From: an uncultured Fodinibius sp.
Lineage (GTDB): Bacteria; Bacteroidota; Rhodothermia; Balneolales; Balneolaceae
Length of the DNA: 64,000 bases
Assembly (NCBI GenBank): GCA_913056235.1
Contig: CAJXMW010000001.1
Coordinates: 1,240,001 to 1,304,000 of the forward strand
Reading direction: 5' to 3'
The position numbers and the translations under genes are program-made. The notes beneath the pieces are model-generated. The model saw only the letters and a list, made by a program, of their open reading frames with translations. It was not told where the DNA came from and searched no databases. Of this stretch, positions 21,106-41,624 are shown in pieces. Position 1 is the first letter of the stretch. Each line of letters opens with the position of its first letter.

Positions 21106-21142
21106 GGTGGGTTGGTAATTAGTTTGTTATCGTTGAATTGGG

Positions 21143-22158: not shown

Positions 22159-23612
22159 CAGGCCACCATTTTGATTTTATAGTTGACCTTCCGCATTTGC
22201 CCGGCCATAATCGTGAACTGATCTGCTGGCGCTAGAGCCTTGCGAGCAACGAGTTTGGGGGAGAATCGATAGGTGCTGTCATCATTTTTTGCGTACAGAC
22301 CAATCTCTTTAACCGTAATATCGGTTGTTCCTTTATTTTCGAATACTCGGGAAAGGTTATAATACGCCTCGTTATTGGTTTCATCGATGGTCACATTATC
22401 ATCAATCATCATGCCGTGATGAAGCAGTTGGCCGTCCCCGAATCCGTGGGTAATGCCACCCAGATTGTAGGGGGTATCGGGGGTCGCATCGGGGGAAAGA
22501 TCGGTGTCGGTCATCGAGACGAATTTGTTGCTTTGGCCAACCCGCAGCCCGAGTTGCCAACCTTTGTCACTGGTCGAAGCATTGTCCTCCAGCGAACACA
22601 TCGAGGTTCCCCCACCACCGATGCACATGAGCATCCGCGCCCAACCCGAATGGGTTGTTTCAACAGCTTGCCGCCGTAGTGCTTTGGCAAATTCGGCCAA
22701 AAATCCGCCGTTGGTTCCATTTAGGTCAGTATCTTGGTTGAAGTTTTCGAGCTCAAACCGGCATTCATAGTCTAGGGTTAGGGTCTTGCTGTCGGGCAGG
22801 TTAATAGCAGATTGGAGAATATCCCGAGCATGCAGGCTGCCTATCGTCTTCAGGGCATACCGGGACAGATCGATGTAGGTAACGAGTCCCATTTCACGGA
22901 TAGTGATGTCCCCACCCGTGGCATTGGTAAAGGGAGCAGAAATCGTAAAGATCGATTTTTCTTGGTCGGTAACGACACCGGAAACGGATACAGAACCCCG
23001 CGAGAGTAGGGCATCAATGGGATTTTCTAGGCCAACATCGGAAATGCTCAGTGGCCTTGTTCCGGCCCCAAGGGTAGGATATACTTTCCGGAAAGGCATG
23101 CAATACCGCTGGGTAGTAGCAATGTTCTTGTAGGTTTTGGAGATGCAGGTCGCATCATCGGCGACATAAGTTGAAGGATCAATCGTCGTGGGCGCGTCTT
23201 TGAGGCGAATATAGTCATTGTTGGTATGGGCACTTTCGACTTCCCACGTACCATTAAGCTCGGGGACGGACTGGCATCCCCAAATATGGACCCATACCGG
23301 TTCTTCTCCGTTTGGATTTCCTGAGTGAGAGCCGTTAAACACGTTACGCAGGTAGCTGCGATAGATTTCTAGGGCACCATCGACAATGTGAAGGCTGGTG
23401 ATCTTGTAATCAGGAACATACTGTTCTAGCGGAGATATGAGCCGCTGGGTTCGACCGCCGTGCATCATCCCGTGAATATCCCTGAGAAATCCTCCGACAA
23501 ATGACTCGCTGTGCAATCTAAGTAGGTGTTTACCGTCCATTCGAATATTACAGAACAGATCCATCCCGGATTTGGGTGTCCCAATTGATAAGGTGTGATT
23601 AATGGTATCCAT
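22158..23612 (-). CDS. large virion surface/spike-like protein with duplicated domain
   Basis: I take the ATG at 23612 (MDTINHTLSIGTPKSG), giving 484 residues. The longer ORF-track start lies in another gene's frame and reads low-complexity nonsense. Two related beta-rich segments occur: GGDITIREMGLVTYIDLSRY (about residue 250) and TTDITVKEIGLYAKND (about residue 425). Each is followed by an ARxxL and a terminal strand ending like VNYKIK, so the domain is duplicated. It is probably a receptor-binding or vertex protein of the virion. It overlaps the transglycosylase start. Confidence 0.55.
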   Translation of the reverse strand: MDTINHTLSIGTPKSGMDLFCNIRMDGKHLLRLHSESFVGGFLRDIHGMMHGGRTQRLISPLEQYVPDYKITSLHIVDGALEIYRSYLRNVFNGSHSGNPNGEEPVWVHIWGCQSVPELNGTWEVESAHTNNDYIRLKDAPTTIDPSTYVADDATCISKTYKNIATTQRYCMPFRKVYPTLGAGTRPLSISDVGLENPIDALLSRGSVSVSGVVTDQEKSIFTISAPFTNATGGDITIREMGLVTYIDLSRYALKTIGSLHARDILQSAINLPDSKTLTLDYECRFELENFNQDTDLNGTNGGFLAEFAKALRRQAVETTHSGWARMLMCIGGGGTSMCSLEDNASTSDKGWQLGLRVGQSNKFVSMTDTDLSPDATPDTPYNLGGITHGFGDGQLLHHGMMIDDNVTIDETNNEAYYNLSRVFENKGTTDITVKEIGLYAKNDDSTYRFSPKLVARKALAPADQFTIMAGQMRKVNYKIKMVA

Positions 23613-23616
23613 GTAG

Positions 23617-24168
23617 TTAAGCGATTGTAGTGATAATATTAGTGTAGGCGTTTCCGGTCTGGGGCCGCTGCTCTTCTCCAATAGCCGGATCTGTTTGCAG
23701 GGTAGCTGATATCGGTCCGGAGCGGGAGATAGGGTCATAGTTTGCGGCAGGAGTAGTGAGAGCCGCCGGACGGAACTCGAATTGGGTAGCGTCGATTGGC
23801 GTAATATCAAGGGCGACGATTCCGAATGGGGTTTCGTTGATCTTCTGGACGTCATCGGGGGTGATGACCGAATAGATGGGGGACTGGCCGATGATTCCGC
23901 TGGATGTTTTCGAACGCACGCGGAAATAGTGGCGGGCATCCAGGTACGTAATGGGAAAATAAAGGGTGTGGTAACGAACCATCTCCGCTGGCTCCCGGTG
24001 ATACTCGGGGGTCCTAGCCAGGTTGCCCGGATCCAGTCCCCAATCCATCTGGGAAGAGGCCTTTTTGCCGGTGGCCCATGAGACCTGGATGGAGCCGTCG
24101 ACCAGCATACCGCTGACGACACGCATTTTAAATCCTTCGTTAAACTCTTTACCGGTGATTTCGCTCAT
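23617..24168 (-). CDS. beta-rich virion protein candidate
   Basis: 183 residues, no membrane segment. The first ~105 residues (IQVSWATGKKASSQMDWGL ... HYFRVRSKTSSG) look like a fibronectin-type III or similar Ig-like beta sandwich, with the typical YxxRVR strand near the end. The remainder is extended. It sits between the spike candidate and the vertex candidate. A fibre or decoration protein is the likely role, inferred from fold impression and position. Confidence 0.5.
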   Translation of the reverse strand: MSEITGKEFNEGFKMRVVSGMLVDGSIQVSWATGKKASSQMDWGLDPGNLARTPEYHREPAEMVRYHTLYFPITYLDARHYFRVRSKTSSGIIGQSPIYSVITPDDVQKINETPFGIVALDITPIDATQFEFRPAALTTPAANYDPISRSGPISATLQTDPAIGEEQRPQTGNAYTNIITTIA

Positions 24169-24169
24169 G

Positions 24170-24589
24170 TCAGGCGCTCCAAAAGATTTCGGTTACGAGA
24201 GCTTTTGAGGTTTCCAGGGCTCCAGAGTTCTCATCCCATAGCCCCATCATGCCACCTTTGTAGAGTTCTTTGAACTGGCGCTCGTCCATGTGAAGCGTTT
24301 CACCGGGCTTGAGCTTGAAGGTATAGTGTCGGTCGTCAATACGACTGGTATCAAGGGCAATCATAAATTCTCCATCGCTGCTATTATGGATGATGACGCC
24401 CAGCCGCATGGGATTGCCGTTGACCAGTTTTACCGGATTGGTTCCCTGTTTGAGAACGGGCGAAATAGCGGTTCCAATTCGTTTGCCTCCCTGTGGGGCC
24501 GATGAGATATTTTGTCCACGAAGTTCAAGCAGCAGGCTATCCAGCTTTTGGGTTAGATCGCATAGGGATGTGATTAAGGCATTCCACAT
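24170..24589 (-). CDS. small beta-barrel virion protein, vertex/penton candidate
   Basis: 139 residues: a short N-terminal helix, then a beta-rich domain (NPMRLGVIIHNSSDGEFMIAL, TFKLKPGETLHMDE). The pattern resembles small barrels used in phage spike bases or penton proteins. It lies immediately downstream of the two capsid candidates with 3-4 base spacing, so it is translated with them. No family is recognised; the assignment is contextual. Confidence 0.45.
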   Translation of the reverse strand: MWNALITSLCDLTQKLDSLLLELRGQNISSAPQGGKRIGTAISPVLKQGTNPVKLVNGNPMRLGVIIHNSSDGEFMIALDTSRIDDRHYTFKLKPGETLHMDERQFKELYKGGMMGLWDENSGALETSKALVTEIFWSA

Positions 24590-24592
24590 AGG

Positions 24593-25372
24593 TTATATCT
24601 CCAGTGGTTTGCTATCAGTTTGTTGGACCGCATATGCTTCACAGAGAAAACTTACGTTGGCCTGTGAGGGGCCTCTGTTGGAAGCATATACTTGAAACGG
24701 CATGTTGGAGCCAATGATAAACGGCACGTTGGCATAGAATTGGCTGAATTCATCATTGAGTTGTTCCAAGTAGATCTCATTGCGAATAGTCGTGTTATAG
24801 ACCTTCAGGCTGGTAGTGATATCACCGGGCCGGTCGCTGCTCATTGCCACCCGTCGAGCTTCCACATCAATACTTTTGGCTTTAACGCCTAGGTCTATAT
24901 TAACGGCCCCCGTTGGTAAGGTTGCCTGGCCATATAAGAAACGAGGTTGTGGCATCAGGGAACCGATGTCCTCGTAAATCGCGGAAAGTTTAGCCAGCCC
25001 AAAGTGATCGAATCCGACCACTTCCATATTAATGTTCTGCGAGGCGCTATGGGTATTGGTAAGTTCAAAGACGAGACTGTTGCTTTTCTGAATGATAAAT
25101 GGGGCAAGCAGGCCCTCGATGCGCTGGAAAAGTCGGTAGACGACGGCAAGCTGCAGGTCTCGAAACAGGTACAGGTCTTCATTTAGCCGTGCTGATACCA
25201 GCACCTTGTCCATGTTGGGGGCATAGGGGAGAATCCGGCGAACCCCGAAGCTTTCCCCGCCCATCCCGTTCATGATAATATGCCCACTTGCTCCCGCCGG
25301 AAGATCAACCGATTTGGCTGGATTGAAGGGCGTAGATTCGGTAGGTGGAATAAAATTCTTTACAATCTTCAT
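24593..25372 (-). CDS. major capsid protein candidate, larger of pair
   Basis: 259 residues without membrane segment or catalytic motif. The composition is beta-rich with alternating hydrophobic strands throughout (GHIIMNGMGG, SLVFELTNTHSASQNINMEV, TGAVNIDLGVKAKSIDVEARR, FLCEAYAV). Size and its place next to the 206-residue candidate match the pair of single-jelly-roll capsid proteins of SH1/P23-77-like viruses (roughly 170-230 and 230-290 residues). The fold is inferred and needs structure prediction. Confidence 0.5.
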   Translation of the reverse strand: MKIVKNFIPPTESTPFNPAKSVDLPAGASGHIIMNGMGGESFGVRRILPYAPNMDKVLVSARLNEDLYLFRDLQLAVVYRLFQRIEGLLAPFIIQKSNSLVFELTNTHSASQNINMEVVGFDHFGLAKLSAIYEDIGSLMPQPRFLYGQATLPTGAVNIDLGVKAKSIDVEARRVAMSSDRPGDITTSLKVYNTTIRNEIYLEQLNDEFSQFYANVPFIIGSNMPFQVYASNRGPSQANVSFLCEAYAVQQTDSKPLEI

Positions 25373-25445
25373 CGCTGGTACGTTAAAGGATTAGAGCAAT
25401 ATTGAATAACCGGCAGCGGCACGGTACCGCTGCCGGTTGGAGAGG

Positions 25446-26066
25446 TTATTTTTCAGGCTTCATTTCGGCGACGACAATGCTTGCTCGCAGGTACAGCAGG
25501 CCTTGGCCGGAGGTGGTCCAGTTCTCATCGCTGGGAAACACCGAGGCGTCATCAAAGTGAACCGACAGCGATAAGGTTTGGTTAACCGCCAAGTCAAAAG
25601 GATCAGCTAGGCGATACTCATCAGCAGATTTGAGCGAGGCAATACGCTTGAAGACCACGGGAGCATCTACGGTATTGGCCGTACCTGCTACCATATGCAT
25701 GCCCGTGCCGGAAAAATTGGAGTGCTTGGAGATCGGCACGCGCAGGAATTCTTTGTTGTCATTGTCGGCCTGCAAAATAACTCCGGCATCTTTCAGGGAG
25801 TTGACAATGCCTCGCGAGTCGATGCCATTGGCATCATCATCCTCGATAAACTGCTTCGTGACTTCGAACGATAGCGCCAGAATACGTCGCTTCAGCTCTC
25901 CCGGGAAGGGGTTGCCCACGTAATTGTTGCGGGTAATTTTCCGCGTCGAGTTGGGCGGGAAAAAGTTTACGACCGCCCCATTTTGTTCCACCTTTTGCGT
26001 GTCAAAATAGGTTTTGATGCGGGCACTGGCGGGTACAATTGCTTTTTTAGTAATTTGGTTGCTCAT
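25446..26066 (-). CDS. major capsid protein candidate, smaller of pair
   Basis: 206 residues, beta-rich, no membrane segment. The C-terminal half (DPFDLAVNQTLSLSVHFDDA ... LLYLRASIVVAEM) reads as a run of beta strands. It is set off from its neighbours by intergenic gaps of 74 and 100 bases, unlike the overlapping genes around it. Such spacing can allow its own strong ribosome site or promoter, as expected for a highly made capsid subunit. Function is inferred. Confidence 0.5.
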   Translation of the reverse strand: MSNQITKKAIVPASARIKTYFDTQKVEQNGAVVNFFPPNSTRKITRNNYVGNPFPGELKRRILALSFEVTKQFIEDDDANGIDSRGIVNSLKDAGVILQADNDNKEFLRVPISKHSNFSGTGMHMVAGTANTVDAPVVFKRIASLKSADEYRLADPFDLAVNQTLSLSVHFDDASVFPSDENWTTSGQGLLYLRASIVVAEMKPEK

Positions 26067-26166
26067 AGCTTGTAGTGTTAAAGAGATTTTAGTTGGGCCA
26101 TATGGCGATTTAGCTTATTCCCGTAAGCAGTCTCTGGGCAGTGAGAGCTATGAGTAGAAAGAGGGG

Positions 26167-26688
26167 TTATACCTCCACGGTTTCCTCAAATGCGTTTTCG
26201 ATTTGGGTTACATGGCCGGTTTGCGGGGGGAGTTGGGCTGCAGGCGCGGTTGGCGCGGGGAGGTCTTGATCATCCCACAGGTATTCACTTCCTTCCATCA
26301 GTCCTTGAGAGGGCGTCCAGTCGGGCATGACGAACTTGATCAGTTCCATGACGCCTTGCACGCCGAGACCCATAGCCAGGCCGCGAAGGTGGGGGTTTTT
26401 GGTAAACATGGTAAAGACCATGCCGAGCGTGAGGGGCAGGCCAACGCGGGCCGCTTGCTGGACAGTAGCTGAGCTGCCGCCAAGAATAGCGGGAACGGCC
26501 AGCCCGTTCAGCTGCGCGCCAATGGCCTGGCCGCCCACAATATATCCGGCAGTGATAAGCTGTTGCTTGAATTCGCCGACAGCCTTTTCGGTAGTTGTTT
26601 GTTTTGCCATAGTTGCAGGTTTTGGAGTTGTTGGGTTTTCGATTATATCCAAGTGGGTTGGATTTTTTGCAAATATTCGTTGGGTCAT
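26167..26688 (-). CDS. virion membrane protein candidate
   Basis: 173 residues. The central part (about 45-140) has Gly/Ala-rich hydrophobic helices (GGQAIGAQLNGLAVPAILGG, GLPLTLGMVFTMFTK), then an acidic, Pro-rich tail. An alternative start is the internal MAKQTTTEKAV (residue 27). The N-terminal extension contains KNPTH and IENPTTP, echoing the RENP motifs in the neighbouring giant protein. It is probably an integral protein of the internal membrane. Confidence 0.5.
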   Translation of the reverse strand: MTQRIFAKNPTHLDIIENPTTPKPATMAKQTTTEKAVGEFKQQLITAGYIVGGQAIGAQLNGLAVPAILGGSSATVQQAARVGLPLTLGMVFTMFTKNPHLRGLAMGLGVQGVMELIKFVMPDWTPSQGLMEGSEYLWDDQDLPAPTAPAAQLPPQTGHVTQIENAFEETVEV

Positions 26689-26706
26689 GGTAGGGCTATG
26701 ATGGGA

Positions 26707-29700
26707 TTAGTTGAGAATTCCTCGTTCGTCAATATTTAAACTGGTAATGATATACACGTCACCGTATTGAAAGATGGGACGCATTCCGTCATCGAAATAG
26801 TGATAGTACTGGTGGTTCTCACCTTTCTTGTCGCCCGGGTATATCACCTTGTCACTGCCGTACATAATACGTTCGGCATGGCCGACCGATACTAATTCCG
26901 CACCCATGGGAGGAAACAGTTCGAAGTCGTAGCCGTCGGCCGGGAAATGGTGAAATTCCTGGTACATTTGTTCGGCCTCGTCGCTGTCAAAGGCTCCTTT
27001 AAGCAACTTCATCCGGTGGGTAGGGAATCCGAACAGCGTCGTTCCCTCTCCGTCGATGATCATGGCAAGTTGGTCAGACTGGATCCGCTGCATGAAGCCT
27101 TTGGTGTCAATAAACTCCAGCTCCCCCACGGTTCCGGCATATACCAGTGGTTCACCAAATAACGTCTTGAGAGGCTGTGGAAGATTTTCTAGTTGCTGGG
27201 GTTGGCTATATTCTGCTCTGTTGGGGCGGGCCTGTTTGGGTTTGGTCCCGTCCCGATAAATCCCCACTTCTCTTGCCCGGACCGTTCCTTTTATCCCATA
27301 GGTAGGGGCGATACGATTGAGCTCTTCGTATAGCTCTGCGCGGTCGGTGAATTTAGTTTTGACCAGCTCGTTGACGACATCTTGCAATTTGGTGACGGTG
27401 TCTTGGTTGGTTTTTAGATTGACCTGAGCTTGCCCGAGTTCCTTGCGGGTTTGCTCGTGGGTAATCTCCAGTTCTTTCAAGGTTTTCTTCGAGCGGCCGA
27501 GCTCCGAGGTAATCTGCTGGATACGGGCCTGGGCGGACTGCTGCCACCCTTTTTCGAGGGCTAAGAATAGGTCGGCCAATTTGGTTTTGATGATCGGCAG
27601 CCAACGCTGGAGCTTATACATGCCAAGTTGTTGCTTGATTTGATCGTAGGTAACATCGCTGTCGTCCGTGTTTGAGGTCTGTTTTTCGGCGTCGATATCT
27701 ATCTCGTAATGAGCGTAAAAATCAGATTCATCGGCAATAATATTGCCTTTGTTACCGGCCAGGCTTCGGCCCGATTGCACCGGCTCATCCATGCTCCACC
27801 CGAATGTTTCATTCAGCTGGTCACCAGCCATCTGTTTGATGGAGCTCCATTTGATCTTGTTATAAAAGCTCCGGTTGGGAGCGTTGGGATCAGGGATGAG
27901 ATTAAACAGTACCCGGCCGTTGGCGTTATTTTTAGGAACCTCCAGGGTTAGCTCGTGGCGGAATCGGGGAATGCGCTTACCGTCGGAAGACAGGTTGTTT
28001 TCGATAGTCCCGATCTCTCCGCTATAGTCCAGCCAGCCGATCCGAATGAGTCCGTTCTCTAGAGCCTCTGCTCCCGAGTTCGGAAGCTCCGAGTCAATAA
28101 GGGCTTGCTCTCGTTGGATGGCCGATTCCATCCGCTCGGAGCGTTTGGTTACGTCCCCGCTTGCTTGCGCCAGTGATGACTCCAGGCGCTGGGTTTCGCT
28201 GAGCAAGGACTCAATGCGGGCTTTCAATACCTTGGTCTGCGCTTTGGACTGGAAAAACTCTTTGACTCTGGGATCGGAGTTGGTGGCGGCTACCATCTGC
28301 TCGTACTCCAAAGATTCACCGTCGGAATCGGCGGAAGTTTCCCGTGCGTCTCCAAAGAAGAGCTCATCAATCCAACTTTGCTTCTTGCTGACCAGCTCCA
28401 GGCGGTACTGATCGAAAGAATCTTTCATCAGGTAGAAGTGAATATTTACTTTTCCGTGCTGGTTGCCTTGGCGGAGCCCGCGCCCGTTGCGCTGTTGAAT
28501 TTGGGAGGGCGTATAAGGCACATCCATGTGATGCAGGTCAGTGGTCCATTTCTGCAGGTTCATGCCTTCGGCAATCGACTGGTTGCCAATGAGCACCCGG
28601 TACTTGCCAACATTGAAATCGTCCTGCACCTCTTTTTTAAGGGCCTCCTTGTCATCGGAAGAAGAAATAAAATAGTCATCACCTTTCTTGTCGGTGCCAA
28701 TGATAGAGCCGTTAATAATGGCTATTTCTTTGGCCGGAATGCCTGCTTTTGTCAGTTCCTCCTTGATGAGCTGGTGGTAACTGCCACCTTTTTGGCCTTC
28801 TACGGAGATCCAGTCGCAGAAAATAATTTGATTGCGGAATATGGGAGTCGTGGGATTCTCGCGGCTTGCGTATAAGGCCTCGACAATCATAATAGCCTTA
28901 TCAAAGGTTTCTTCTATTTGATCACTACCGTCGGAGAATTTCTCTCGCTGTTTCTCAATTTTATTAAGCAAGAATTGCTTGCCTACCGGCACCGCATGCA
29001 GGTTTCCTTCGGTGGCTTTAATTTCTTGGGCAACCTCTTCGAAGTATGCAAGGGATTTGAGCTCTTTAATAAGGTTATGTCGGGACCGGCTTTCGTATGG
29101 ATTTGGATTTTCTCGGGCAGACGGTACTTTCGAAAAGAAATCCCCATAGATGCTTTCCGGAACTCTGCTTGGAGCAGGATTTTCTCGGTGGGCGTAGCTT
29201 TCGGCTACGTTTTCCACCAGGGTTCCGAGTTTCAGAAATTTCCCATCGACGCCCTTAAAACTGTTATCATACACGCGAAGGTCGGTCGCAATCTTGCTGC
29301 CATCCCCGGTGATCACCAGGAAGTTGTCCTTGGTCTGGCATCCGCGCTGACGCATGCAATCTAGGATATTATCGGCTCGGAGTATGATATCGTCAAAGAG
29401 TAGCTTATGAATTTCGCTGGGCTGGATGACTTGTTGTTTTGTTTCGGCTTCGGGTCGCTTGAATTTTGGTTTTAATGTTTTGGGGTTGCCTTTTTCGTCC
29501 ACTTCGAGGTTCCCAGCCTCATCTTTGAGTAGATCCGGAAACTTATCGTAGAATCCCACCAGCTGATCATAACTTTTAATATCCATGACCTCATCGATAA
29601 TGGAGCGCATCTCTGGGAGATTGTAATACCCGCCGACCACGCGCTCAGTCCGGTATTCGCCGTTGGTCTTTTTGACGATTTTTTCCTCCTCGCGGACAAA

Positions 29701-32700
29701 CTGGTTAATAAAGTTGTCGAGATTCGCAATTTGGTATTTCTCTAGCAGGTCTGGGGCACAGAGGTTGAGCATGTGCCAAACCTCGACGGGGGAATTCACC
29801 ACCGGCGTAGCGGTTAGGACAAATACGTTTTTAAACCCTATTTTTGAAAACAGCCACTTCGTTTTTTGGAGGGCATCTTCGGCTCGTTGGGACGGTTTAT
29901 TAGCGGCAATGCCAAGCTTGGCTGCTTTGGCGCTACCAAGCGCGTTTTTGTAGAAATGGGCCTCATCAAAAAACAGGGCATCAACCCCGAGCTCATCAAA
30001 AAAGATGTCGGTGTCCAGCCGCTTGGCATTTGCCACATTACGGAGTTTGGCTTCCCATTCTTCTTTCATCTTCTCCAGGCGGGTGACCATCGACTTTTTG
30101 GCCGTGGAACTGAGCGCGTCGTCCTCTTCGATCAGTTCGTCGAAGTGTTCAATCATTTGATCAAAGTATTCGACGCGATCGGAATACATCTGTTGTTGCA
30201 CGGCCGGGGACAGGGGCAGGCTCTTGAACGCATGATCGGCGATAAAGATCGCATCCCAGTTATACAGCTGGGCCATGGTGAGCTCCCTGTGGCGCTCGGG
30301 GCCGGCCATTTTCATGTTGAGGATCTTCGCATCGGGGAACAGCATCGAATATTCTTCCACCCATTTTTCCTGCACTTTACCGGGTACCACAAACATCGGT
30401 TTGCGGCAGGCGCCTTGCTGGGCCAATACCTGAGAAGTGATAATGGAGGCGAGCGTCTTACCGGCGCCGACGTCGTGGCAATTGGCTCCCCGTCCGTTCC
30501 AGACCAACTTTTCGGCTACCGCGCGATTATGTTTGTACACCGAAAAGTCCTTGACCCCGTAGAAGGTATCCGACATGCCGCGCACGCGAAGGGTGGCTCC
30601 ATCAAATTGCGGGTTGATATGAGCGTTATATTCGTGGTTATAGGCCTCTTCGATGAGCTCGCGGATTTCTGTGGAGGTTTTGGTGCGGACCCACTGGTTG
30701 AACTTTTGGGGGACCCGCGTCAGCATCTGGTCATTATGGGTTCGCTGCTTGGCGCGGGCTCGTTCGATCAGCGCTTGCTGGCCGGTTTGCTCGGCTCGTT
30801 TGAGCGTCATATTCGGCAGCACGTTGTCGTCCTCATCGTAGAAGACCAGCGGGAAGCTGGAATCCTGGATATAGTTATTAATAATCTTGCTGAAAGGCGT
30901 CTCGCCCCATCCTTGGTTCCAGTCGTCAGCCGTTTCCTCGCCATTTTTAATATATCGCCCGCCTTTGCGGAGTTTCATGTAGAAGCGGTTGCCGAGATCA
31001 GCTTTATCTTTGACGAGTCCGATGTGGACGTCCCGATAGCCGAGTTCATCTTTTATCCACTGGGTGAGCACTTTCGTGGGCAGATAGGTAAAAATGTGGT
31101 GGGGATCCACGGTGATCGAATATGCGTCAATCCATTCGGGAAGGACGGCTTTCAGGGCTTTGGTATTCTTTTCCAGCTGATTGTCTTCCGCCACTTGGAG
31201 TTTATGGCGTACATTGCCGGCCAGATATTGATAGCGAAATTCGTAGCCATTAGACTCGGGGTTATAGAAGAAATCCGGGTGCTCCTCGATGGCTTGGGTG
31301 AGCTCGGCCCGGTTGGCTGTACCGCCTTTGTAGGTAGACTGGTAGAAATCTAGCGTTAGCTCTTCGCCAATGGAGCGGCCATACATGGCTATTTCAGCCA
31401 AATCATCGGAGTCCGAGACCGCCGGCACGTAGTTATCGTTGAACATCGAATCCGCATCAATGATATCAGCGTACACCAGCTCCCCGCTGATCGGATCGCG
31501 TTTTACAAAGGTCGTTAGTTTATATAGGCGGTTGTCGTAGCGGAATACCTGGCGGATGTCTTCGTCTTCATCGGGAATGCCGTAGGTGTCGATATGGGTC
31601 CCGAGAAGTTGCTTAAACTCCCCGCGCAGCGGCTCTTTTTGGGCGGTATCCTGGGCCAGTGCGGTCACGAAATCATCATAGGTGTCGAGCATTTGGCAGG
31701 CCGAGCTGATCTTGGCCCGCAGTCCTTCGCCCGTTTTGTCGCTGGTACCTACGGTTATGGGTTTGAAGTAGTGTCGCTGTTTTTCATAGAAGGTTCCTTC
31801 ATGGTAAATAATATTACCCGCGTGATAGTCGCGGCCGGTGTCCAATCTAATTCCTTCATCAGGTATTCGGTAGAATGGTAGCTGCTTAGGGAGGGGGTAG
31901 GGAAACTGGAGATCATCTCCAATCACGCGGTCGGTAAGCTTGTTATTGACCTGACCTTTGACACCCATGCGCGTCAGAAACTGCATGTCGTGGCCTTGAA
32001 TATGCTCACCTAATACCTGGTTGGGATATTTTTGGAAATAGGGGTTGTAGTAGGCTCCATAAGATTCCCCGTTATGTTCGGTGATACTGACGGCCAGTTC
32101 CTCATAGGCAAACAGTTGGTTTAGCTTACTGGTGACGTCAGGGTGTTGTTCCCCGTCAATGTCCGGATACTTTTGAAATAAGATCAAATCCGTGGTTACC
32201 AGCGTATCGGCATTATCTTTAAAAGCAGTTGAGGGGAGTCGGTAGGCGCCCACAAATCGGGCCCGCTGGACCATGGCCTGTCGGATGGCCGGATCTTTTT
32301 TGTCCATCGTACCGACTGAGGTAATCGCCGCCATAAAACCGCCAGGCTGGAGCGCATCCAAAGACTTTAGAATGAAATAGTCGTGGATACGGGGATTCAA
32401 GTGGGCTAAGGGATCGCGCTGGGTATGAACTTTTATATCCCCAAAGGGGACGTTGCCGATAGCGCCGGTAAGATTATATAGCGACAGATCGGTCTCAGCA
32501 AAGTTTTGGTGCCTGACTAACTGGGTAGGATACAATAATTTTGCAATGCGAGAGCTCACTGCCGATCGTTCTACCATCAGCATGCGATAGTGGTCAGAAT
32601 TGGGGAGGAATCCCGCAAAGTTGCCAATGCCCGCCCCGGGCTCTAATATGTTGCCGCCTTCCACGCCCATAGCCTGAAGCTTCTTCCAAATTAGCTGTAC

Positions 32701-33957
32701 TAACGGGTAGGAGGTGTAATGCTCGTTGAGTAGGCCGCGCTCAGTGCCGGTTCGGTCCTCGCCGTACCCCAATCCACCAGCTCCGGTGTACCGGCGAAGA
32801 ATGTCCAGGTCCGATTCGGTGATGGCCCGATTTTCTTTTTCCAAGACCGCTAGGGCCGCTTCGTTGGCCCGGCGTCGCTCGGATTTCGAAAGTTTTATAG
32901 GAGTAAAATTTTCAAGTTGGAGGCCGGAAAAATTGCTTCCATATTCGGCTTCTCCCGGCCGATCTCCGGGGGCTTGGTATGATTGGTCGCCGTTTTTTTC
33001 AGGGCTTTTCGATTTCTTTTGGGCGACGGAAAATACCTCGTCGAAATCGACGCCAACCGCTTCCCCATGTTCGCGAAATAGTTTCAACGCCTGCTCGCGA
33101 TGTTCCTTGGGAAACTTATCGAGCGAAAAGGCCAGAGCCAGTTTCTGTACCGTCTGGGTGAAAGAATCTTGGAGCGCCTGCAATTCACTCGAAGGGTTTT
33201 CGCGGGAGGTTAGTTGCTCTGTCAATTTTGTGGGGTTGTCCAGAAGAGCATCGATTTTATTTGCGGCAGCTTCATCCCCTTGGTCCGCTTGCCAGGCCAG
33301 ATCAGTGAGATGGTTCATTCGTTGGGTATTGAGGGCGCCATTTTTGTACGGGGTGTGAGCTGCACTGGCTATTTGGGCCATACGCTTGGTCTTTACCTGT
33401 ACCTCAACAGGGATATCTCCCTCTTGACCAGCCATGACAATAAAGTGGTGGGCCCGATAACCGCCAACCGGATTGGCGTATTTATTTTCATGTTCAAATA
33501 CGTTGCCAATGGTTCCTGAAGCAATTTTTTGGGCTACCTGATCCAGCTCAGCTTGTCCGTCCAATACAATCATGCACCCGGCCATATCGGTCAGGCCTTG
33601 GGTATAGAGCTGGCCGGTGCCAGCTTGCTTAATATCGGCTTTAGTACGCTTGCGCCGCAATTTGTTGATGACCGAATAGGGGGATTTCACGCGGCCCTTG
33701 ACGGTGGCGGTCGGGTGCAAGTCTTTGAGCGAAGCTATTACTTCATCCAAAGCCTGCTGGTAGTCCCCGCGAAGGGCAATCAGCTGTTTAATTTCTTCGG
33801 TGAGTTTGGTCTCCTCAACAGTCTCGGTGTCCCCGTCTCGTTGTGGATTAGGATCGTCGGCATTCGGGATCCCGTCTTCATCGAAGTCGCCAAAAATGCC
33901 GGGATAGTCCTCGGTTGTAATGTCTTCAAAAGGCGTAACAGTCGGATTGTCTCGCAT
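26707..33957 (-). CDS. polyvalent protein: RelA/SpoT-like domain + DarB-like methyltransferase-helicase
   Basis: 2416 residues. Residues 24-38 hold a calcium-binding-like DFDEDGIPNADDPNP. Residues about 88-205 match a RelA/SpoT synthetase: RVKSPYSVINKLRRK, LTDMAGCMIV, GYRAHHFIV, VEVQVKT with the catalytic Glu, and SAAHTPYK. An N6-adenine methyltransferase follows, with EPGAGIGNF (about 440) and GNVPFGD (about 501). Then comes an SF2/SNF2-like helicase: GAGKT (about 1164), FFDEAHFYKN (about 1328), LTATPVVNSP and QQRNGRGLRQG (about 1825). Coiled coils lie at about 1930-2200. Known phage polyvalent proteins of this type (DarB of P1) protect incoming DNA from restriction. The fused alarmone-type domain may act on the host. 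Confidence 0.85.
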   Translation of the reverse strand: MRDNPTVTPFEDITTEDYPGIFGDFDEDGIPNADDPNPQRDGDTETVEETKLTEEIKQLIALRGDYQQALDEVIASLKDLHPTATVKGRVKSPYSVINKLRRKRTKADIKQAGTGQLYTQGLTDMAGCMIVLDGQAELDQVAQKIASGTIGNVFEHENKYANPVGGYRAHHFIVMAGQEGDIPVEVQVKTKRMAQIASAAHTPYKNGALNTQRMNHLTDLAWQADQGDEAAANKIDALLDNPTKLTEQLTSRENPSSELQALQDSFTQTVQKLALAFSLDKFPKEHREQALKLFREHGEAVGVDFDEVFSVAQKKSKSPEKNGDQSYQAPGDRPGEAEYGSNFSGLQLENFTPIKLSKSERRRANEAALAVLEKENRAITESDLDILRRYTGAGGLGYGEDRTGTERGLLNEHYTSYPLVQLIWKKLQAMGVEGGNILEPGAGIGNFAGFLPNSDHYRMLMVERSAVSSRIAKLLYPTQLVRHQNFAETDLSLYNLTGAIGNVPFGDIKVHTQRDPLAHLNPRIHDYFILKSLDALQPGGFMAAITSVGTMDKKDPAIRQAMVQRARFVGAYRLPSTAFKDNADTLVTTDLILFQKYPDIDGEQHPDVTSKLNQLFAYEELAVSITEHNGESYGAYYNPYFQKYPNQVLGEHIQGHDMQFLTRMGVKGQVNNKLTDRVIGDDLQFPYPLPKQLPFYRIPDEGIRLDTGRDYHAGNIIYHEGTFYEKQRHYFKPITVGTSDKTGEGLRAKISSACQMLDTYDDFVTALAQDTAQKEPLRGEFKQLLGTHIDTYGIPDEDEDIRQVFRYDNRLYKLTTFVKRDPISGELVYADIIDADSMFNDNYVPAVSDSDDLAEIAMYGRSIGEELTLDFYQSTYKGGTANRAELTQAIEEHPDFFYNPESNGYEFRYQYLAGNVRHKLQVAEDNQLEKNTKALKAVLPEWIDAYSITVDPHHIFTYLPTKVLTQWIKDELGYRDVHIGLVKDKADLGNRFYMKLRKGGRYIKNGEETADDWNQGWGETPFSKIINNYIQDSSFPLVFYDEDDNVLPNMTLKRAEQTGQQALIERARAKQRTHNDQMLTRVPQKFNQWVRTKTSTEIRELIEEAYNHEYNAHINPQFDGATLRVRGMSDTFYGVKDFSVYKHNRAVAEKLVWNGRGANCHDVGAGKTLASIITSQVLAQQGACRKPMFVVPGKVQEKWVEEYSMLFPDAKILNMKMAGPERHRELTMAQLYNWDAIFIADHAFKSLPLSPAVQQQMYSDRVEYFDQMIEHFDELIEEDDALSSTAKKSMVTRLEKMKEEWEAKLRNVANAKRLDTDIFFDELGVDALFFDEAHFYKNALGSAKAAKLGIAANKPSQRAEDALQKTKWLFSKIGFKNVFVLTATPVVNSPVEVWHMLNLCAPDLLEKYQIANLDNFINQFVREEEKIVKKTNGEYRTERVVGGYYNLPEMRSIIDEVMDIKSYDQLVGFYDKFPDLLKDEAGNLEVDEKGNPKTLKPKFKRPEAETKQQVIQPSEIHKLLFDDIILRADNILDCMRQRGCQTKDNFLVITGDGSKIATDLRVYDNSFKGVDGKFLKLGTLVENVAESYAHRENPAPSRVPESIYGDFFSKVPSARENPNPYESRSRHNLIKELKSLAYFEEVAQEIKATEGNLHAVPVGKQFLLNKIEKQREKFSDGSDQIEETFDKAIMIVEALYASRENPTTPIFRNQIIFCDWISVEGQKGGSYHQLIKEELTKAGIPAKEIAIINGSIIGTDKKGDDYFISSSDDKEALKKEVQDDFNVGKYRVLIGNQSIAEGMNLQKWTTDLHHMDVPYTPSQIQQRNGRGLRQGNQHGKVNIHFYLMKDSFDQYRLELVSKKQSWIDELFFGDARETSADSDGESLEYEQMVAATNSDPRVKEFFQSKAQTKVLKARIESLLSETQRLESSLAQASGDVTKRSERMESAIQREQALIDSELPNSGAEALENGLIRIGWLDYSGEIGTIENNLSSDGKRIPRFRHELTLEVPKNNANGRVLFNLIPDPNAPNRSFYNKIKWSSIKQMAGDQLNETFGWSMDEPVQSGRSLAGNKGNIIADESDFYAHYEIDIDAEKQTSNTDDSDVTYDQIKQQLGMYKLQRWLPIIKTKLADLFLALEKGWQQSAQARIQQITSELGRSKKTLKELEITHEQTRKELGQAQVNLKTNQDTVTKLQDVVNELVKTKFTDRAELYEELNRIAPTYGIKGTVRAREVGIYRDGTKPKQARPNRAEYSQPQQLENLPQPLKTLFGEPLVYAGTVGELEFIDTKGFMQRIQSDQLAMIIDGEGTTLFGFPTHRMKLLKGAFDSDEAEQMYQEFHHFPADGYDFELFPPMGAELVSVGHAERIMYGSDKVIYPGDKKGENHQYYHYFDDGMRPIFQYGDVYIITSLNIDERGILN

Positions 33958-33961
33958 AGGG

Positions 33962-35245
33962 TTATCCCAGTATTTTGGTTAGGAAGTCGTCCAGTTTGGC
34001 CTGGCTTTCTTTGGCCGCTTCAATGTCGATGGGTTGCCGGGTTTCTGCATCAGAAGAAGTGTCTTTCTCTTTTGGCGCAGTCTTGACTTGTTTCTCGGCA
34101 GTGGTAGGCTTGCTTTTGGTAGGTTGCTTTTTGGTTTTCGATGGAGGTGAGCTGGGTGGGGTAGGTTTGGGTTCCTTTTTGGCCAGGGCCCGTTCCTGGC
34201 GCTTGTATTCCTTGGCGCCCAGTACCACTTTGGCGTGATCTTGCTTGAAGATTCGGATCTCGAGGTCGCCGTATTTGTTGACCAATTTTTTCCAGCATGC
34301 TTTTAATCCGCCACCAGTACCTTCGGTACAGGCTTGGTACTCCAGGTGGCCATCGAGGAGCAGGTCCATGATATATCGCTTTTTGGGATAGTCGGCCGTA
34401 TAACGAATCGACAGGTGGGCGTTTTCAGATTCCCCGGAATGCCGTGGGGCATAGCAGGGCATCTTGCTACCGAACATCGAGTTGATGCGTTTCCAGGAGC
34501 GAATTTTGTGGAGATTGTCTAATTTTTTGAGGGTGATTTTAAACGGAGTATCTACGGGGTTTTCGCGGTTGTCGGGCGACGCTTGTTTCGAGGATTTAGG
34601 TTTTGGTGACACTTTTCGGTCGGCGGCCGTAAATGGCACGGCAATGGCCGTAAGTTCCCGGTAGCGGTTCTTCTCGGTTTCGGCGCCACCTTCTTTGGTA
34701 ACCTTGATTTCAATATCACATTCGTGGGCAATGCTGGTGTTGCCTTTGTATTGCCCGTCTTTGGTGGCATGGGAAACCATCACAAACATGATCCCGTTTT
34801 CGCGGCACCACTGGGCTAGTTCCACGGTTTCCTTCGCGTTGGCATCAATGACGGAGATGGAATCCAGGATGCACCCGAACGACCGGTTTTTGAGCAGTAT
34901 TTCTTTAAGGGACTGAATGGATTTCCACTTCGTAAAATTGAGGTTCCGGTGGGTAGCTCCCAGTCGCTTCACGCGGTCGACCAGTGTTTTGCCAAAATGT
35001 TCTTCGGCGGGGATATATTCGATGCGCCCATGGGCGGCCAGCGCGTCGGCCAGTCCCAGACTCATGGTTGATTTACCGGCTCCTTTTTCGCCCCAGATAA
35101 AGATTACGGCATTTTTTTCGGGCTCACCGAGCAGTCGTCCGTAGGGCGGGGCTATTTTTATGCCTTTAATGTTCAACTTGGAAAGCTGCTGAGCAGTCAT
35201 TGATTCCATATTATTGTCGTCTGATAGTTTTAATTGCGATTCCAA
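33962..35245 (-). CDS. RecA/RadA-superfamily ATPase
   Basis: 427 residues. An N-terminal RecA-like core has Walker A GEKGAGKST (about residue 50) and Walker B SFGCILDSISVID, with MFVMVSHATKDG as the sensor strand. A second small domain (about 255-345) and a long Lys/Pro/Ser-rich tail follow. The core resembles Sak4/RadA-type recombination ATPases. With no HerA/FtsK-type packaging ATPase visible, a packaging role is also possible. One RENP tetrapeptide lies in the interdomain linker. It starts inside the preceding gene's end and ends 5 bases before the giant protein. Confidence 0.65.
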   Translation of the reverse strand: MESQLKLSDDNNMESMTAQQLSKLNIKGIKIAPPYGRLLGEPEKNAVIFIWGEKGAGKSTMSLGLADALAAHGRIEYIPAEEHFGKTLVDRVKRLGATHRNLNFTKWKSIQSLKEILLKNRSFGCILDSISVIDANAKETVELAQWCRENGIMFVMVSHATKDGQYKGNTSIAHECDIEIKVTKEGGAETEKNRYRELTAIAVPFTAADRKVSPKPKSSKQASPDNRENPVDTPFKITLKKLDNLHKIRSWKRINSMFGSKMPCYAPRHSGESENAHLSIRYTADYPKKRYIMDLLLDGHLEYQACTEGTGGGLKACWKKLVNKYGDLEIRIFKQDHAKVVLGAKEYKRQERALAKKEPKPTPPSSPPSKTKKQPTKSKPTTAEKQVKTAPKEKDTSSDAETRQPIDIEAAKESQAKLDDFLTKILG

Positions 35246-35534
35246 TGGCGATAATAGTCAGGCTGCCAAAAAGCAGCACCTTGTGGTTTACCGATGTCGG
35301 TGGTGGCCCTTGGGTTATGGCTTTCGGGTTAATGCCAAGTTTTTGTAGTAGCTCCTGACCCGCTATGCCGCTGGTTGGGAGTCCCAGTTGTTGTTGGGCT
35401 TGCTTGACGGCTGCCTGCGTTTCCGGGCCAAAGATGCCGTCAACGCCATATTTTGGGAGCTCGATACCAAGAGCTTTCAATGCTGATTGCAGGTGCATGA
35501 CCTGCGGTCCTTTATCACCTATTTTGAGGGTCAT
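35211..35534 (-). CDS. peptidoglycan-binding, tail-anchored protein
   Basis: 107 residues. Residues 1-65 form a PG_binding_1 domain (LKIGDKGPQVMHLQSALKAL ... DGIFGPETQAAVKQAQ). A C-terminal membrane helix (KVLLFGSLTIIAIGIAIKTI) ends in RRQ. A membrane-held wall-binding module would position the virion membrane or its transglycosylase against peptidoglycan during entry. It overlaps the genes on both sides. Confidence 0.75.
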   Translation of the reverse strand: MTLKIGDKGPQVMHLQSALKALGIELPKYGVDGIFGPETQAAVKQAQQQLGLPTSGIAGQELLQKLGINPKAITQGPPPTSVNHKVLLFGSLTIIAIGIAIKTIRRQ

Positions 35535-35941
35535 GATGAAGATCGTTGTTGGTTTATGACGGTGAGTCCGGCAATGCCGATGGCGATGCCAACGGATAGC
35601 AGGCCGGCGTGTTTGAGTGCGGCTACGGGTTTGCTGCTTGCTACGGTTTCCTGAAGACCCACAAGATCACTTACCGCCTGCAGGTCGACATATTCGAAGT
35701 ACTGGTTGATCACCTCGGCATTTCGGTTGTAGACAGTATTTAACCCCTCTTTATCGGTCGTTAGATCGGCCATAATTATTGCGGTCGTAGCCGCTTTTCC
35801 TTTCTTGCCGCTTAAGGCCCGATCGGCAAGGCCAATGGCTTTGCGAAACGCATTCTTGCCGGTCTGACGCAGGTAGCTGCTAAGATCGCCCATGCCATCA
35901 TCAACAATCTGATAATCGCGGCCTTCAATTAACTCATGCAT
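35531..35941 (-). CDS. tail-anchored virion protein candidate
   Basis: I choose the ATG at 35941 (MHELIEGRDYQIV), giving 136 residues; the ORF-track start reads 66 implausible residues through the upstream gene. A helical soluble part is followed by a C-terminal membrane helix (LLSVGIAIGIAGLTVI) and a short polar end. It overlaps the upstream gene by 8 bases and the downstream one by 4. No family is recognised. Confidence 0.5.
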   Translation of the reverse strand: MHELIEGRDYQIVDDGMGDLSSYLRQTGKNAFRKAIGLADRALSGKKGKAATTAIIMADLTTDKEGLNTVYNRNAEVINQYFEYVDLQAVSDLVGLQETVASSKPVAALKHAGLLSVGIAIGIAGLTVINQQRSSS

Positions 35942-36617
35942 CCGGTTTCTCCTTCTGTGTGCTCTTTGATAGTTGTTTGATGCTATCACGCAAACCCGGC
36001 ATGAGGGGAGCCAGGAAGTACGCTCCGGCTCCGAGGCCCACCAGCCACAATGCTTTGGTGAGGGTACTGTTGACACCGTTGAATGCACTTTGCGGGCTCG
36101 GCAAGCTAATCTGATACCACGGTTCGGTGGGAGGAGCATATACCCCGCTTTGTTGGCCTTGGTCGATATCCAAATCCAGCGTCATAACCTTAGAGGCTGC
36201 AAGCGGTTTGGCCTCGGATATATTGGTTTCCGTAACATTGCTGGGATGCAGCTCAAAGATGACTGGGTGATTGCGGTCCGGGCGAAACGATCGCCCGAAG
36301 ACCAGTCGCGTTTGCCCACGGCATCCGTCCCACATGCTGGTCAGGATGCGGGATATGGCCAATATCTTTCGGGATTGTGGATCGAGAGCGGCTATTACAG
36401 CATCCGGACATGATATAAGCAGAAACGAATTCCAAATGTTGCGGTACCGGTCGATTTCAATATCAACGGAAAAGGGCACCCCGTTTTTGGGTAGTCCGCG
36501 CTCCGGATACCGCCCGATAATGCGAACTTCACCTGCCTCAGAGCTAATAATATTTCCTGTAATGCCGGCCGAGCCTAGCCCGTGATCGCTATATGCGGAG
36601 TGTATGGTCTGTGTCAT
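35934..36617 (-). CDS. beta-rich protein with C-terminal membrane helix
   Basis: 227 residues. About residues 20-150 are beta-rich (GVPFSVDIEIDRYRNIWNS, TRLVFGRSFRPD, MTLDLDIDQG), and a membrane helix lies at about 185-205 (ALWLVGLGAGAYFLAPLM). It could be a minor capsid or vertex protein held in the internal membrane. Position is within the tail-anchored gene series, one base from its upstream neighbour. Confidence 0.45.
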   Translation of the reverse strand: MTQTIHSAYSDHGLGSAGITGNIISSEAGEVRIIGRYPERGLPKNGVPFSVDIEIDRYRNIWNSFLLISCPDAVIAALDPQSRKILAISRILTSMWDGCRGQTRLVFGRSFRPDRNHPVIFELHPSNVTETNISEAKPLAASKVMTLDLDIDQGQQSGVYAPPTEPWYQISLPSPQSAFNGVNSTLTKALWLVGLGAGAYFLAPLMPGLRDSIKQLSKSTQKEKPDA

Positions 36618-36618
36618 G

Positions 36619-36927
36619 TTATCTTCGTCTGGTTAAGATTCGAAATCCGATGTATCCGCCAGCAATCCATCCTAAGGTTTTACTGTTCCGGCTAAACCAT
36701 TCCCGGATCTCACCGGTGGGGTGAGGACCGGAAAGCCGCTGGCAGATTGATTGCTTTTCGGAGGATTTAATCTCGGCCCCTTTGGGGATTTCCTGCACCT
36801 GGATAGCCGGTTGCAGGTAGATCGTTTCTTCCGATGGGGAGGGGTTTGGATAGCGGCCGTTGGGAATATGGCCATCGAGATAATGAGAAATTCCTACCGG
36901 ATGGGCGGGATAAGTGACTTCGATCAT
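36619..36927 (-). CDS. small tail-anchored protein
   Basis: 102 residues. A Pro-rich polar N-terminal part is followed by the C-terminal helix LGWIAGGYIGFRIL and a TRRR end. It has the same design as its neighbours (soluble part, short helix, basic last residues) and is probably a virion-membrane protein. No family is recognised. Confidence 0.45.
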   Translation of the reverse strand: MIEVTYPAHPVGISHYLDGHIPNGRYPNPSPSEETIYLQPAIQVQEIPKGAEIKSSEKQSICQRLSGPHPTGEIREWFSRNSKTLGWIAGGYIGFRILTRRR

Positions 36928-36928
36928 A

Positions 36929-37294
36929 TTAGGATTTCTTTTTTAATAAGGTGTACATGACTGTTCCCCCAACGGCCACTACGCCGCCAATGAGTAAGAT
37001 AGATGTCATGCTGTCTCCACTGGATTTCTGGGATTGCATCAGCGCCATTTGCTGCTCAGGCGTAAGTCCTGGATGTCCAGAGTTATTGTTACCTCCATTG
37101 ATCACCCCATCAACGGTTACGGCCGTATCGGCCGCAGTCGTAAGAAAGCTTGACAGGTCATTTAAAATGCTGCCAAACTTGGTTTTCTTTGAGGTGGTGG
37201 ACCTCGTAGGAGGTAGTGAGGGACTTGTTAAGCTATAGTTAAACGGTCGGGTGGTTTGCAAGAAATCAATTTGATCGAAAGAGCTGCTGTTCAT
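36929..37294 (-). CDS. small tail-anchored protein
   Basis: 121 residues. A Ser/Thr-rich N-terminus, a central helical segment (SFLTTAADTAVTVDGVI), a polar linker (NPEQQMALMQS-like in composition) and a C-terminal helix (SILLIGGVVAVGGTVMYTLL) ending in KKKS. It belongs to the tail-anchored series; function is unknown. Confidence 0.45.
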   Translation of the reverse strand: MNSSSFDQIDFLQTTRPFNYSLTSPSLPPTRSTTSKKTKFGSILNDLSSFLTTAADTAVTVDGVINGGNNNSGHPGLTPEQQMALMQSQKSSGDSMTSILLIGGVVAVGGTVMYTLLKKKS

Positions 37295-37303
37295 AGTGGC
37301 AGG

Positions 37304-37726
37304 TTACGCAGGTTGAGAGTTAGTTTTTTTCTTTTTGGCAATAAGCAAAATGGCCGTTCCCAGGATGGCTACGCCACCAACGGCGGCTCCCGCTATCATG
37401 GCCGTAGAAGCCGTCTGCTGTTTTTCCGCGGTATCGGTCACGTTATGCTGAAGGGCCGTCATGAGCTGCTGTTTCTCCTGCTCCATGGTTTTCTTTTCGG
37501 CCAGCTTGCGCTCGTGGGCTTTGCAGAGGGCTTGCGATTTTTCGCGTTTCCGCCGGCACCTCTTTAATGCCCCAAACATCTTGCCCCGGCAGCTTTGGTT
37601 GGCATACCGGCAGGGATCATCTTGTTCCCATCCGGCAAATCCACTTGGACTAGTCAGGTTGTTTGTAATGATCAACTGATCATCATCGCTTGTTATCGCT
37701 ACTGGTTGTATGTACGAACTGCTCAT
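37304..37726 (-). CDS. small tail-anchored protein with Cys/Arg-rich centre
   Basis: 140 residues. A basic Cys-containing region (CRYANQSCRGKMFGALKRC) and a charged helix (LCKAHERKLAEKKTMEQEKQ) precede a C-terminal membrane helix (IAGAAVGGVAILGTAILLI) with a KKKK stop-transfer end. The basic segment could touch DNA inside the virion. It belongs to the tail-anchored series and no family is recognised. Confidence 0.45.
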   Translation of the reverse strand: MSSSYIQPVAITSDDDQLIITNNLTSPSGFAGWEQDDPCRYANQSCRGKMFGALKRCRRKREKSQALCKAHERKLAEKKTMEQEKQQLMTALQHNVTDTAEKQQTASTAMIAGAAVGGVAILGTAILLIAKKKKTNSQPA

Positions 37727-37731
37727 AAAGG

Positions 37732-38763: not shown

Positions 38764-38987
38764 GAGCGGTAGGTGATATAGTCAAGTAAAAGTTGCAGGC
38801 CGTGCTCGGGATTACGGGTTGTTACATTACCCAGGCGCTTTGCCAATTTTGGGTCAAGGTCGCCCAAACTGATAAGTACACCTGCGAATTGACGGGAGCG
38901 TGTGATAGTCGTTATTCCCGGGTCATCCAATTCCTTGTAGATATTATCCCGAAGGCTCGTAACAGTTTGTTGGGTAATGGTTGGCAT
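38760..38987 (-). CDS. small helical hypothetical protein
   Basis: 75 residues, soluble, helical (SLRDNIYKELDDPGITTITRS), containing the tetrapeptide TRNP. It sits between the transglutaminase-like gene and a 134-residue protein with short spacing, so it is part of the late operon. No family or function is recognised. Confidence 0.4.
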   Translation of the reverse strand: MPTITQQTVTSLRDNIYKELDDPGITTITRSRQFAGVLISLGDLDPKLAKRLGNVTTRNPEHGLQLLLDYITYRS

Positions 38988-38996
38988 AGCTGTTGA

Positions 38997-39401: not shown

Positions 39402-39421
39402 GGCAGAGATGGGTATGATAA

Positions 39422-41491: not shown

Positions 41492-41497
41492 GTTTGG

Positions 41498-41624
41498 ACA
41501 TAACCGCACATTAATGGGACAGGCATTGCCTATTCTTGCCAACCTCTCTTTTTATAGTTACTCTTTCATTTGTAAACAATTTCAAAACGTTGGTGCTTGC
41601 ACTTTATGCGCGATGCCATTAGGT
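41498..41624 (+). other. attC-like site A
   Basis: The 5' end ACATAAC..CGCACATTAA pairs with the 3' end TTTATGCGCGATGCCATTAGGT as an imperfect stem. The spacing is 127 bp and it lies directly between two cassette ORFs. The ATTAGGT 3' core deviates from GTTRRRY at one position. Confidence 0.65.

Follow-up and report, generated by a model that had tools for sequence, protein, structure and literature searches.

A giant protein of a Fodinibius provirus with SSIP-1-like virion genes joins a RelA/SpoT-type domain to a DarB-like methyltransferase-helicase

RelA/SpoT, ART, ArdC, MPTase, ddrB-ParB and DarB modules have all been catalogued as components of polyvalent proteins (Iyer et al. 2017, PMC5512222), and polyvalent proteins with a RelA/SpoT module were reported from spirochaete and epsilonproteobacterial (pro)phages. 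Most phage carriers of polyvalent proteins are described in the same survey, from which Salisaeta is absent, as unified by portal-terminase packaging. Published work describes SSIP-1 (NC_017983) as a phage that contains a membrane and has two types of major capsid protein (PMC6356626). Among RelA/SpoT-type synthetases, the SxH motif is said to recognise guanosine, while the Apk2 (p)ppApp synthetases have GxN at syn3 (PMC12226406).

The giant gene and its provirus

A stretch of 64,000 nucleotides from an uncultured, salt-loving Fodinibius sp. (contig CAJXMW010000001.1, hereafter the window) contains one minus-strand reading frame of 2416 codons, running from 33957 down to 26707. Its product, P0001, joins a RelA/SpoT-type synthetase domain to a DarB-like methyltransferase-helicase (Table 1). 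A preliminary description had proposed this fusion, and the Pfam, PHROG and AlphaFold2/Foldseek matches given below bear it out. The frame is not a chance one, because 19 homologous loci encode the full-length fusion and the omega of its RelA part is 0.07-0.13.

Table 1. Features of the giant gene and the surrounding provirus (window coordinates; residues refer to P0001)
Feature	Position	Strand	Basis or remark
Provirus, about 45 kb	19140..64000	.	left edge ~19.1 kb; right edge ~64.6 kb, just outside window
SLT lytic transglycosylase with C-terminal membrane segment	21598..22158	-	membrane segment by eye
Putative capsid protein 2, homolog of SSIP-1 gp47 (structural)	24593..25372	-	hhalign 99.5%
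Putative capsid protein 1, homolog of SSIP-1 gp46 (structural)	25446..26066	-	hhalign 98.4%
173-aa protein with N-terminal AKNP, conserved in block	26167..26688	-	region comparison
Giant polyvalent protein P0001, 2416 aa	26707..33957	-	19 homologous full-length loci
Conserved C-terminal domain ending ERGILN, residues 2264-2416	26710..27168	-	common to SSIP-1 gp43 and otherwise different payload proteins
Helicase lobe 2 (Helicase_C, QRNGRGLRQG), residues 1706-1930	28168..28842	-	Pfam, PHROG
Inter-lobe insert with three R-x-N-P motifs (residues 1591, 1615, 1699)	28852..29187	-	motif search
SNF2/SF2 helicase lobe 1 (GAGKT, DEAH, LTATP), residues 1151-1450	29608..30507	-	Pfam, motifs
DarB-type N6-adenine methyltransferase (LEPGAG.GNF, GNVPFG), residues ~360-700	31858..32880	-	PHROG, motifs
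R-E-N-P motif, residues 252-255, RelA domain/methyltransferase joint	33193..33204	-	motif in homologs
RelA/SpoT-type synthetase domain, residues 49-245 (Pfam core 88-207)	33223..33813	-	Pfam, profile, AlphaFold2, Foldseek, omega
D-x-D-x-DG..N.DDPNP segment, residues 22-43	33829..33894	-	alignment of homologs
Virion ATPase, homolog of SSIP-1 gp40 (structural)	33962..35245	-	stops 4 nt before giant gene; contains NRENPV
Peptidoglycan-binding protein with C-terminal membrane segment	35211..35534	-	membrane segment by eye
Transglutaminase-fold (cysteine-peptidase-like) protein, homolog of SSIP-1 structural gp34	37732..38763	-	E=7e-36
Replication protein, distant homolog of related proviruses' primase/helicase-like protein	59714..61852	-	30% to G067 protein; no Pfam match
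Tyrosine integrase	63365..64000	-	continues to 64531 past window

The RelA-DarB-tail architecture of these 19 loci emerged from successive genome searches (14, then four more, then one more), and the genome scan names Fodinibius/Aliifodinibius, Gracilimonas, Rhodohalobacter and Balneola as hosts. Outside Balneolota, alignments among the matches listed begin at residue 309 or later and thus lack the RelA domain; two further plasmid matches, beginning at residue 295-320, also start past it. The exception is a partial match on a 9.6-kb contig binned as Spirochaetaceae (L064), which covers residues 593-1784 only and is uninformative on RelA. This contig is 68% identical to the DarB part and is possibly a misbinned Balneolota contig.

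The giant gene lies in a provirus of about 45 kb (SSIP-1 has 43.8 kb), within a conserved block (~19.1 to 40.8 kb) in which every gene is on the minus strand. The adjoining ATPase is 34% identical to SSIP-1 gp40 (E=4e-23), a homolog of the 259-aa capsid protein 2 matches gp47 (E=8e-13), and in profile comparisons the 206-aa protein matches gp46 (98.4%) and the 259-aa protein gp47 (99.5%). All four of the SSIP-1 proteins gp34, gp40, gp46 and gp47 are annotated as structural in GenBank, and the packaging ATPase and the two capsid proteins are homologous between the two elements in identical order. The viral setting proposed earlier also holds in its late-gene context: SSIP-1 gp43, annotated as structural (GenBank), occupies the equivalent gene position. 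The carrier would be a temperate, tailless, membrane-containing virus related to SSIP-1. Tail genes gave no match in the element, where many small proteins have a hydrophobic C-terminus by eye, and portal/terminase gave none among the structural ORFs scanned in the provirus. Many small virion-cluster proteins of two related elements, G067 and G069 (L034-L037), have SG[FY]LxD near one end and a C-terminal hydrophobic segment. The transglutaminase-fold virion protein is kept in all SSIP-1-like elements examined and is a candidate maturation protease.

The same genome encodes a second full-length copy of P0001 (88% identical, C1:422939-430201), in an element that also has an integrase (70% identical) and a replication gene (93% identical) of its own, and a third element on contig C5 has a C-terminal match to P0001. 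As several members of the genus carry intact copies near similar right-hand genes, a domesticated, vertically inherited (gene-transfer-agent-like) element was considered. This reading was rejected: the host genes flanking the element in the window do not correspond to those beside the copies elsewhere, and each of the two copies in this genome comes with a separate integrase and replication gene. A convincing direct repeat (att sites) was not found between the provirus ends, and a circularity check of a 22.3-kb Fodinibius contig was negative.

The variable region of the provirus (window 40799-58103) is rich in defence-like genes (HEPN-Apea, Fic, a ThiF/E2-like fusion and Eco57I-type restriction-modification). 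Just right of the window, adjoining the integrase, lies a BREX-like defence island, along with a tRNA-like 3' fragment; both were named by reading the sequence (L050). The third provirus of the genome (G000:C5, SSIP-1-like) contains a diversity-generating retroelement (L157 1357-4243) with an RT-like frame bearing YMDD and a 388-aa, lectin/FGE-like target gene product; template and variable repeats are identical at 97/115 positions, and 18/18 differences fall at template adenines.

The RelA/SpoT-type domain and the DarB-like part

The N-terminal domain of P0001 has the RelA/SpoT synthetase fold. The preliminary description had let its claim depend on a profile search for this fold, and the search found it: Pfam RelA_SpoT matches residues 88-207 with 50.1 bits (cut-off 27 bits; E=3.9e-13). 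A profile of 13 homologs, compared with solved structures, matches alarmone synthetases (RelP 6fgj, E=1.9e-10, RelQ/YjbM, RelSeq, RelA and CapRel). With the AlphaFold2 model of residues 36-260 (pLDDT 79.6), Foldseek ranks RelP/SAS2 and SAS1 at the top (E=4.9e-9) and finds CapRel at E=1.3e-7. The synthetase hallmarks named earlier are located at residues 89-100 (RVKSPYSVINKL), 166-172 (GYRAHHF) and 184-190 (VEVQVKT).

The active-site environment can be compared residue by residue with FaRel2, whose residue roles are taken from PMC11782079. The counterparts of the ATP triphosphate-binding residues R64, K66, S70, K74 and R77 are R89, K91, S95, K99 and R102; the Mg-binding Asp D90 corresponds to D124 and G93 to G127, while the acceptor Tyr and the Glu-x-Gln pair (Y128, E145 and Q147) correspond to Y167, E185 and Q187. 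All of these P0001 residues are invariant in 14/14 homologs. Two other positions depart from the (p)ppGpp synthetase signature (syn2 Arg plus syn3 Ser-x-His) in the same 14/14 homologs: Met129 stands where FaRel2 has the adenine-contacting and stacking R95 (the AVR Arg of syn2), and syn3 reads Ala169-x-His171 instead of Ser-x-His. The domain thus matches neither the SxH of (p)ppGpp synthetases nor the GxN of Apk2. To judge from its sequence, the domain is probably enzymatically active. The product of the predicted synthetase is uncertain because Met129 and Ala169 replace signature residues; it could be (p)ppGpp, (p)ppApp or a pyrophosphorylated tRNA, or the domain may make no product at all.

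Between Fodinibius copies, omega is 0.07-0.13 in the RelA domain versus 0.01-0.04 in the helicase lobes, and the RelA domain is under strong purifying selection. The faster divergence relative to the helicase (omega ~0.1 versus ~0.02), together with the exchange of Arg for Met129 and of Ser for Ala169 in all homologs, would suit a catalytically dead domain kept for folding or for binding, for example of tRNA or nucleotide. Against this, R89, K91, S95, K99, R102, D124, Y167, E185 and Q187, which correspond to catalytic and ATP-binding positions of FaRel2 (PMC11782079), are invariant; this explanation is judged quite improbable. A CapRel-like role in the lysogen, as a module for defence or superinfection exclusion rather than as a delivered effector, is very improbable: the domain lies within a structural operon, fused to a DarB module and a shared virion tail, and the annotation of the conserved block revealed no antitoxin or small alarmone hydrolase, even though the fold matches CapRel and the candidate defence family PDC-S33, and the provirus also has defence-like genes.

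Directly N-terminal of the RelA domain, the segment at residues 22-43 (D-x-D-x-DG..N.DDPNP) is invariant in 14/14 homologs. By eye it resembles a TSP3-type Ca-binding repeat, with no Pfam match.

The remainder of the enzymatic region is an N6-methyltransferase plus SF2 helicase of DarB type with intact motifs, as had been claimed. PHROG 10089 ('DarB-like antirestriction') matches residues 406-1948 (E=1.7e-169), and Pfam places SNF2 at residues ~1370-1426 and Helicase_C at 1770-1831. The methyltransferase motifs LEPGAG and GNVPFG are intact, a form present in 58/66 related loci; in the helicase, GAGKT and DEAH are kept, and LTATP and QRNGRGLRQG were read in the translation. The DarB part (residues ~312-1960) shows about 25-29% identity to phage and plasmid DarB-like proteins.

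Shared C-terminal domain, payloads and R-x-N-P motifs

The 2319-aa structural protein gp43 of SSIP-1, which like P0001 is encoded between the ATPase and capsid genes, carries an N6-methyltransferase and a ParB domain. In BLASTP, it resembles P0001 only in the C-terminal stretch (P0001 residues 2329-2416, 35%, E=2.7e-11), and both proteins terminate in IDERGILN. The tail domain of ~150 residues also closes proteins with quite different payloads: ART-PolyVal plus DarB (G067), DarB alone with no extra module (G069), virion ATPase plus ddrB-ParB (G000:C5), and virion ATPase plus ArdcN, MPTase and ddrB-ParB (G007:C4), with the same module order and the tail, by reading, in G328. In the G067 relative (L131 2306-8473), the ART-PolyVal ADP-ribosyltransferase fills the N-terminal slot that corresponds to the RelA position in P0001. 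Of 395 genomes sampled across the phylum, 15 contain the tail, 14 of them in one family and one in the same order. A scan of IMG/VR with the tail matched SSIP-1 only, and a scan of it with the giant protein gave no match.

The tail homologs collected are 14 mostly close sequences, and the AlphaFold model of the tail is uninformative (pLDDT 52). Matches of the tail profile to PDB were set aside as weak (best Scone-E E=7e-6, no stretch passing alone), and an hhalign comparison of alignment A2 with gp43 was discarded as circular, since A2 contains gp43.

This previously unnamed domain stays the same in sequence and place while the payloads ahead of it change, and gp43 is in the particle. A packaging signal would look like this, and the tail is possibly one. 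Alternatively, it might be a working part of the packaging or ejection machine, a partner of the ATPase, with payloads accreting on a structural component. The G000:C5, G007:C4 and G328 polypeptides begin with the virion ATPase and end with the tail, and elsewhere the ATPase gene adjoins the payload gene or lies two genes away (SSIP-1). Where the genes are separate, however, the tail is found on the payload protein and not on the ATPase, and ERGILN is retained as the last residues of the chain, in the manner of a terminal signal; the ATPase-partner role is considered unlikely.

Short R/K-x-N-P motifs are enriched in the structural proteins of eight elements (44 observed versus 13.2 expected from shuffles, about 3.3-fold; Poisson about 2e-11, uncorrected for homology between elements), compared with about 1.3-fold for other x-x-N-P and 3 versus 2.1 expected in host proteins. 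Those at P0001 positions 252, 1591, 1615 and 1699 are nearly all conserved in homologs. Sites lie at joints: after RelA, between the two helicase lobes, behind the ATPase where this is part of a fusion, ahead of ArdC, and directly in front of the tail in SSIP-1, G067 and G007:C4; the homolog G378 has an additional N-terminal segment with RKNP at the joint. The simplest reading of the motif is a putative processing site. A mere effect of linker composition would account for the many sites in disordered-looking Pro/Asn-rich linkers and for the giant protein of G069, in which no R-x-N-P motif was found, and its chance falls only a little short of even. The excess over other x-x-N-P and over the host argues against it, as does the retention of the motif whether a module is separate or fused: SSIP-1 gp41, a separate ORF, starts with MRENP, and its fused counterpart in C5 and G007:C4 (39-42% identity) follows RENP. 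A DNA-level recombination seam or DNA motif was rejected, as codons vary among sites.

On balance, P0001 is probably a virion-packaged polyvalent protein of a tailless internal-membrane virus, with exchangeable payloads placed before a packaging tail and delivered with the DNA. It would be synthesised late, from an operon that also encodes the packaging ATPase and the capsid proteins, recruited to the particle through its C-terminal domain (residues ~2264-2416, ...ERGILN), and carried into the new host together with the viral DNA. There, the methyltransferase-helicase would shield or modify the incoming genome against restriction, while the RelA/SpoT domain might use ATP to pyrophosphorylate an acceptor, either a nucleotide or a tRNA CCA end, in a short pulse that could throttle host translation or defences. 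Related viruses would exchange the payload in front of the tail, and the R-x-N-P motifs may mark joints, perhaps cut after assembly or delivery.

This explanation is preferred because the RelA part combines synthetase fold and residues with purifying selection; because SSIP-1 structural proteins have homologs here in identical order, namely the ATPase, the two capsid proteins and the transglutaminase-fold protein; because structural gp43, in the equivalent place, has only the C-terminal domain in common with P0001; because the tail is found behind other payloads (G067, G069, G000:C5, G007:C4 and G328); and because the giant gene lies 4 nt from the ATPase gene and R-x-N-P, retained in separate and fused modules alike, is in excess. 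Counting against it, the activity or product of the RelA domain could differ because all 14 homologs have Met129 and Ala169; some non-RelA architectures are fused to the ATPase, so that the tail could work for the ATPase and not for packaging; and the G069 protein is devoid of R-x-N-P. A further-reaching and more tentative suggestion, on the doubtful side, is that tailless, internal-membrane phages use the ERGILN domain to load their virions, as a signal not described before, so that any effector ahead of it would be packaged and delivered. Such effectors may include RelA/SpoT, ADP-ribosyltransferase, DarB, ArdC-MPTase and ParB, and the R-x-N-P joints would be cut, perhaps by the transglutaminase-fold virion protein, freeing the modules in the new host.

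Comparison with known systems

Like the polyvalent proteins of Iyer et al. 2017 (PMC5512222), P0001 holds several conflict enzymes in one protein encoded near virion genes. The polyvalent logic suggested at the outset is borne out: at least two conflict domains, RelA/SpoT and DarB, reside in one mobile-element protein encoded beside virion genes. The portal-terminase context, typical of phage polyvalent proteins though not strictly defining, is not seen among the structural ORFs scanned here, and unlike those proteins, P0001 has a predicted tailless membrane virus as carrier and a previously unnamed C-terminal domain. Structural searches also brought up RelA/SpoT-like domains in uncultured tailed phages, within long proteins that in some cases have DdrB or ART-PolyVal domains annotated. 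The combination of module and carrier is new but the principle is not, because RelA/SpoT polyvalent proteins are known from other phages.

Polyvalent proteins and RelA-type effectors have so far come mostly from portal-terminase phages and conjugative elements. The present locus would extend the polyvalent strategy to tailless membrane-containing temperate viruses, in a form where a single tail is conserved and the payloads, a RelA/SpoT enzyme among them, can be exchanged. The shared tail provides a direct test case for protein selection in packaging and a candidate tag to load enzymes into particles. P0001 may also represent a natural case of alarmone or pyrophosphorylated-tRNA synthesis at virus entry, a chemistry that hosts turn on phages (CapRel, toxSAS).

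Small alarmone synthetases (RelP/SAS2, RelQ/SAS1) and toxSAS (CapRel, FaRel2) share with P0001 the fold, the donor-site R/K/S/K/R, the Mg Asp, the acceptor Tyr and Glu-x-Gln. They differ in having the adenine-stacking Arg where P0001 has Met129 and Ser-x-His where it has Ala-x-His, and the P0001 domain resides within a 2416-aa viral protein, with no antitoxin gene recognised in the block. In the Apk2 MuF prophage toxins (PMC12226406), which are adenosine 3'-pyrophosphokinases, a phage structural protein likewise carries a RelA/SpoT-type domain, and syn2 is again devoid of the AVR Arg; however, they have GxN at syn3 and YH at syn4, in place of AxH and VK in P0001, for which there is no Pfam MuF match and no IapK/Aph1 neighbour was recognised. 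Phage P1 DarB and the PHROG 10089 proteins have the same N6-methyltransferase plus SF2 helicase, while the DarB-like proteins of the matched phages and plasmids lack both the RelA domain and the ERGILN tail. SSIP-1 differs in host genus and accessory genes and in the payload of gp43, an N6-methyltransferase plus ParB-like domain without RelA or DarB helicase; it agrees with this provirus in the equal order of the gp40, gp46, gp47 and gp34 homologs, in the giant structural gp43 between the ATPase and capsid genes, and in the common C-terminal domain.
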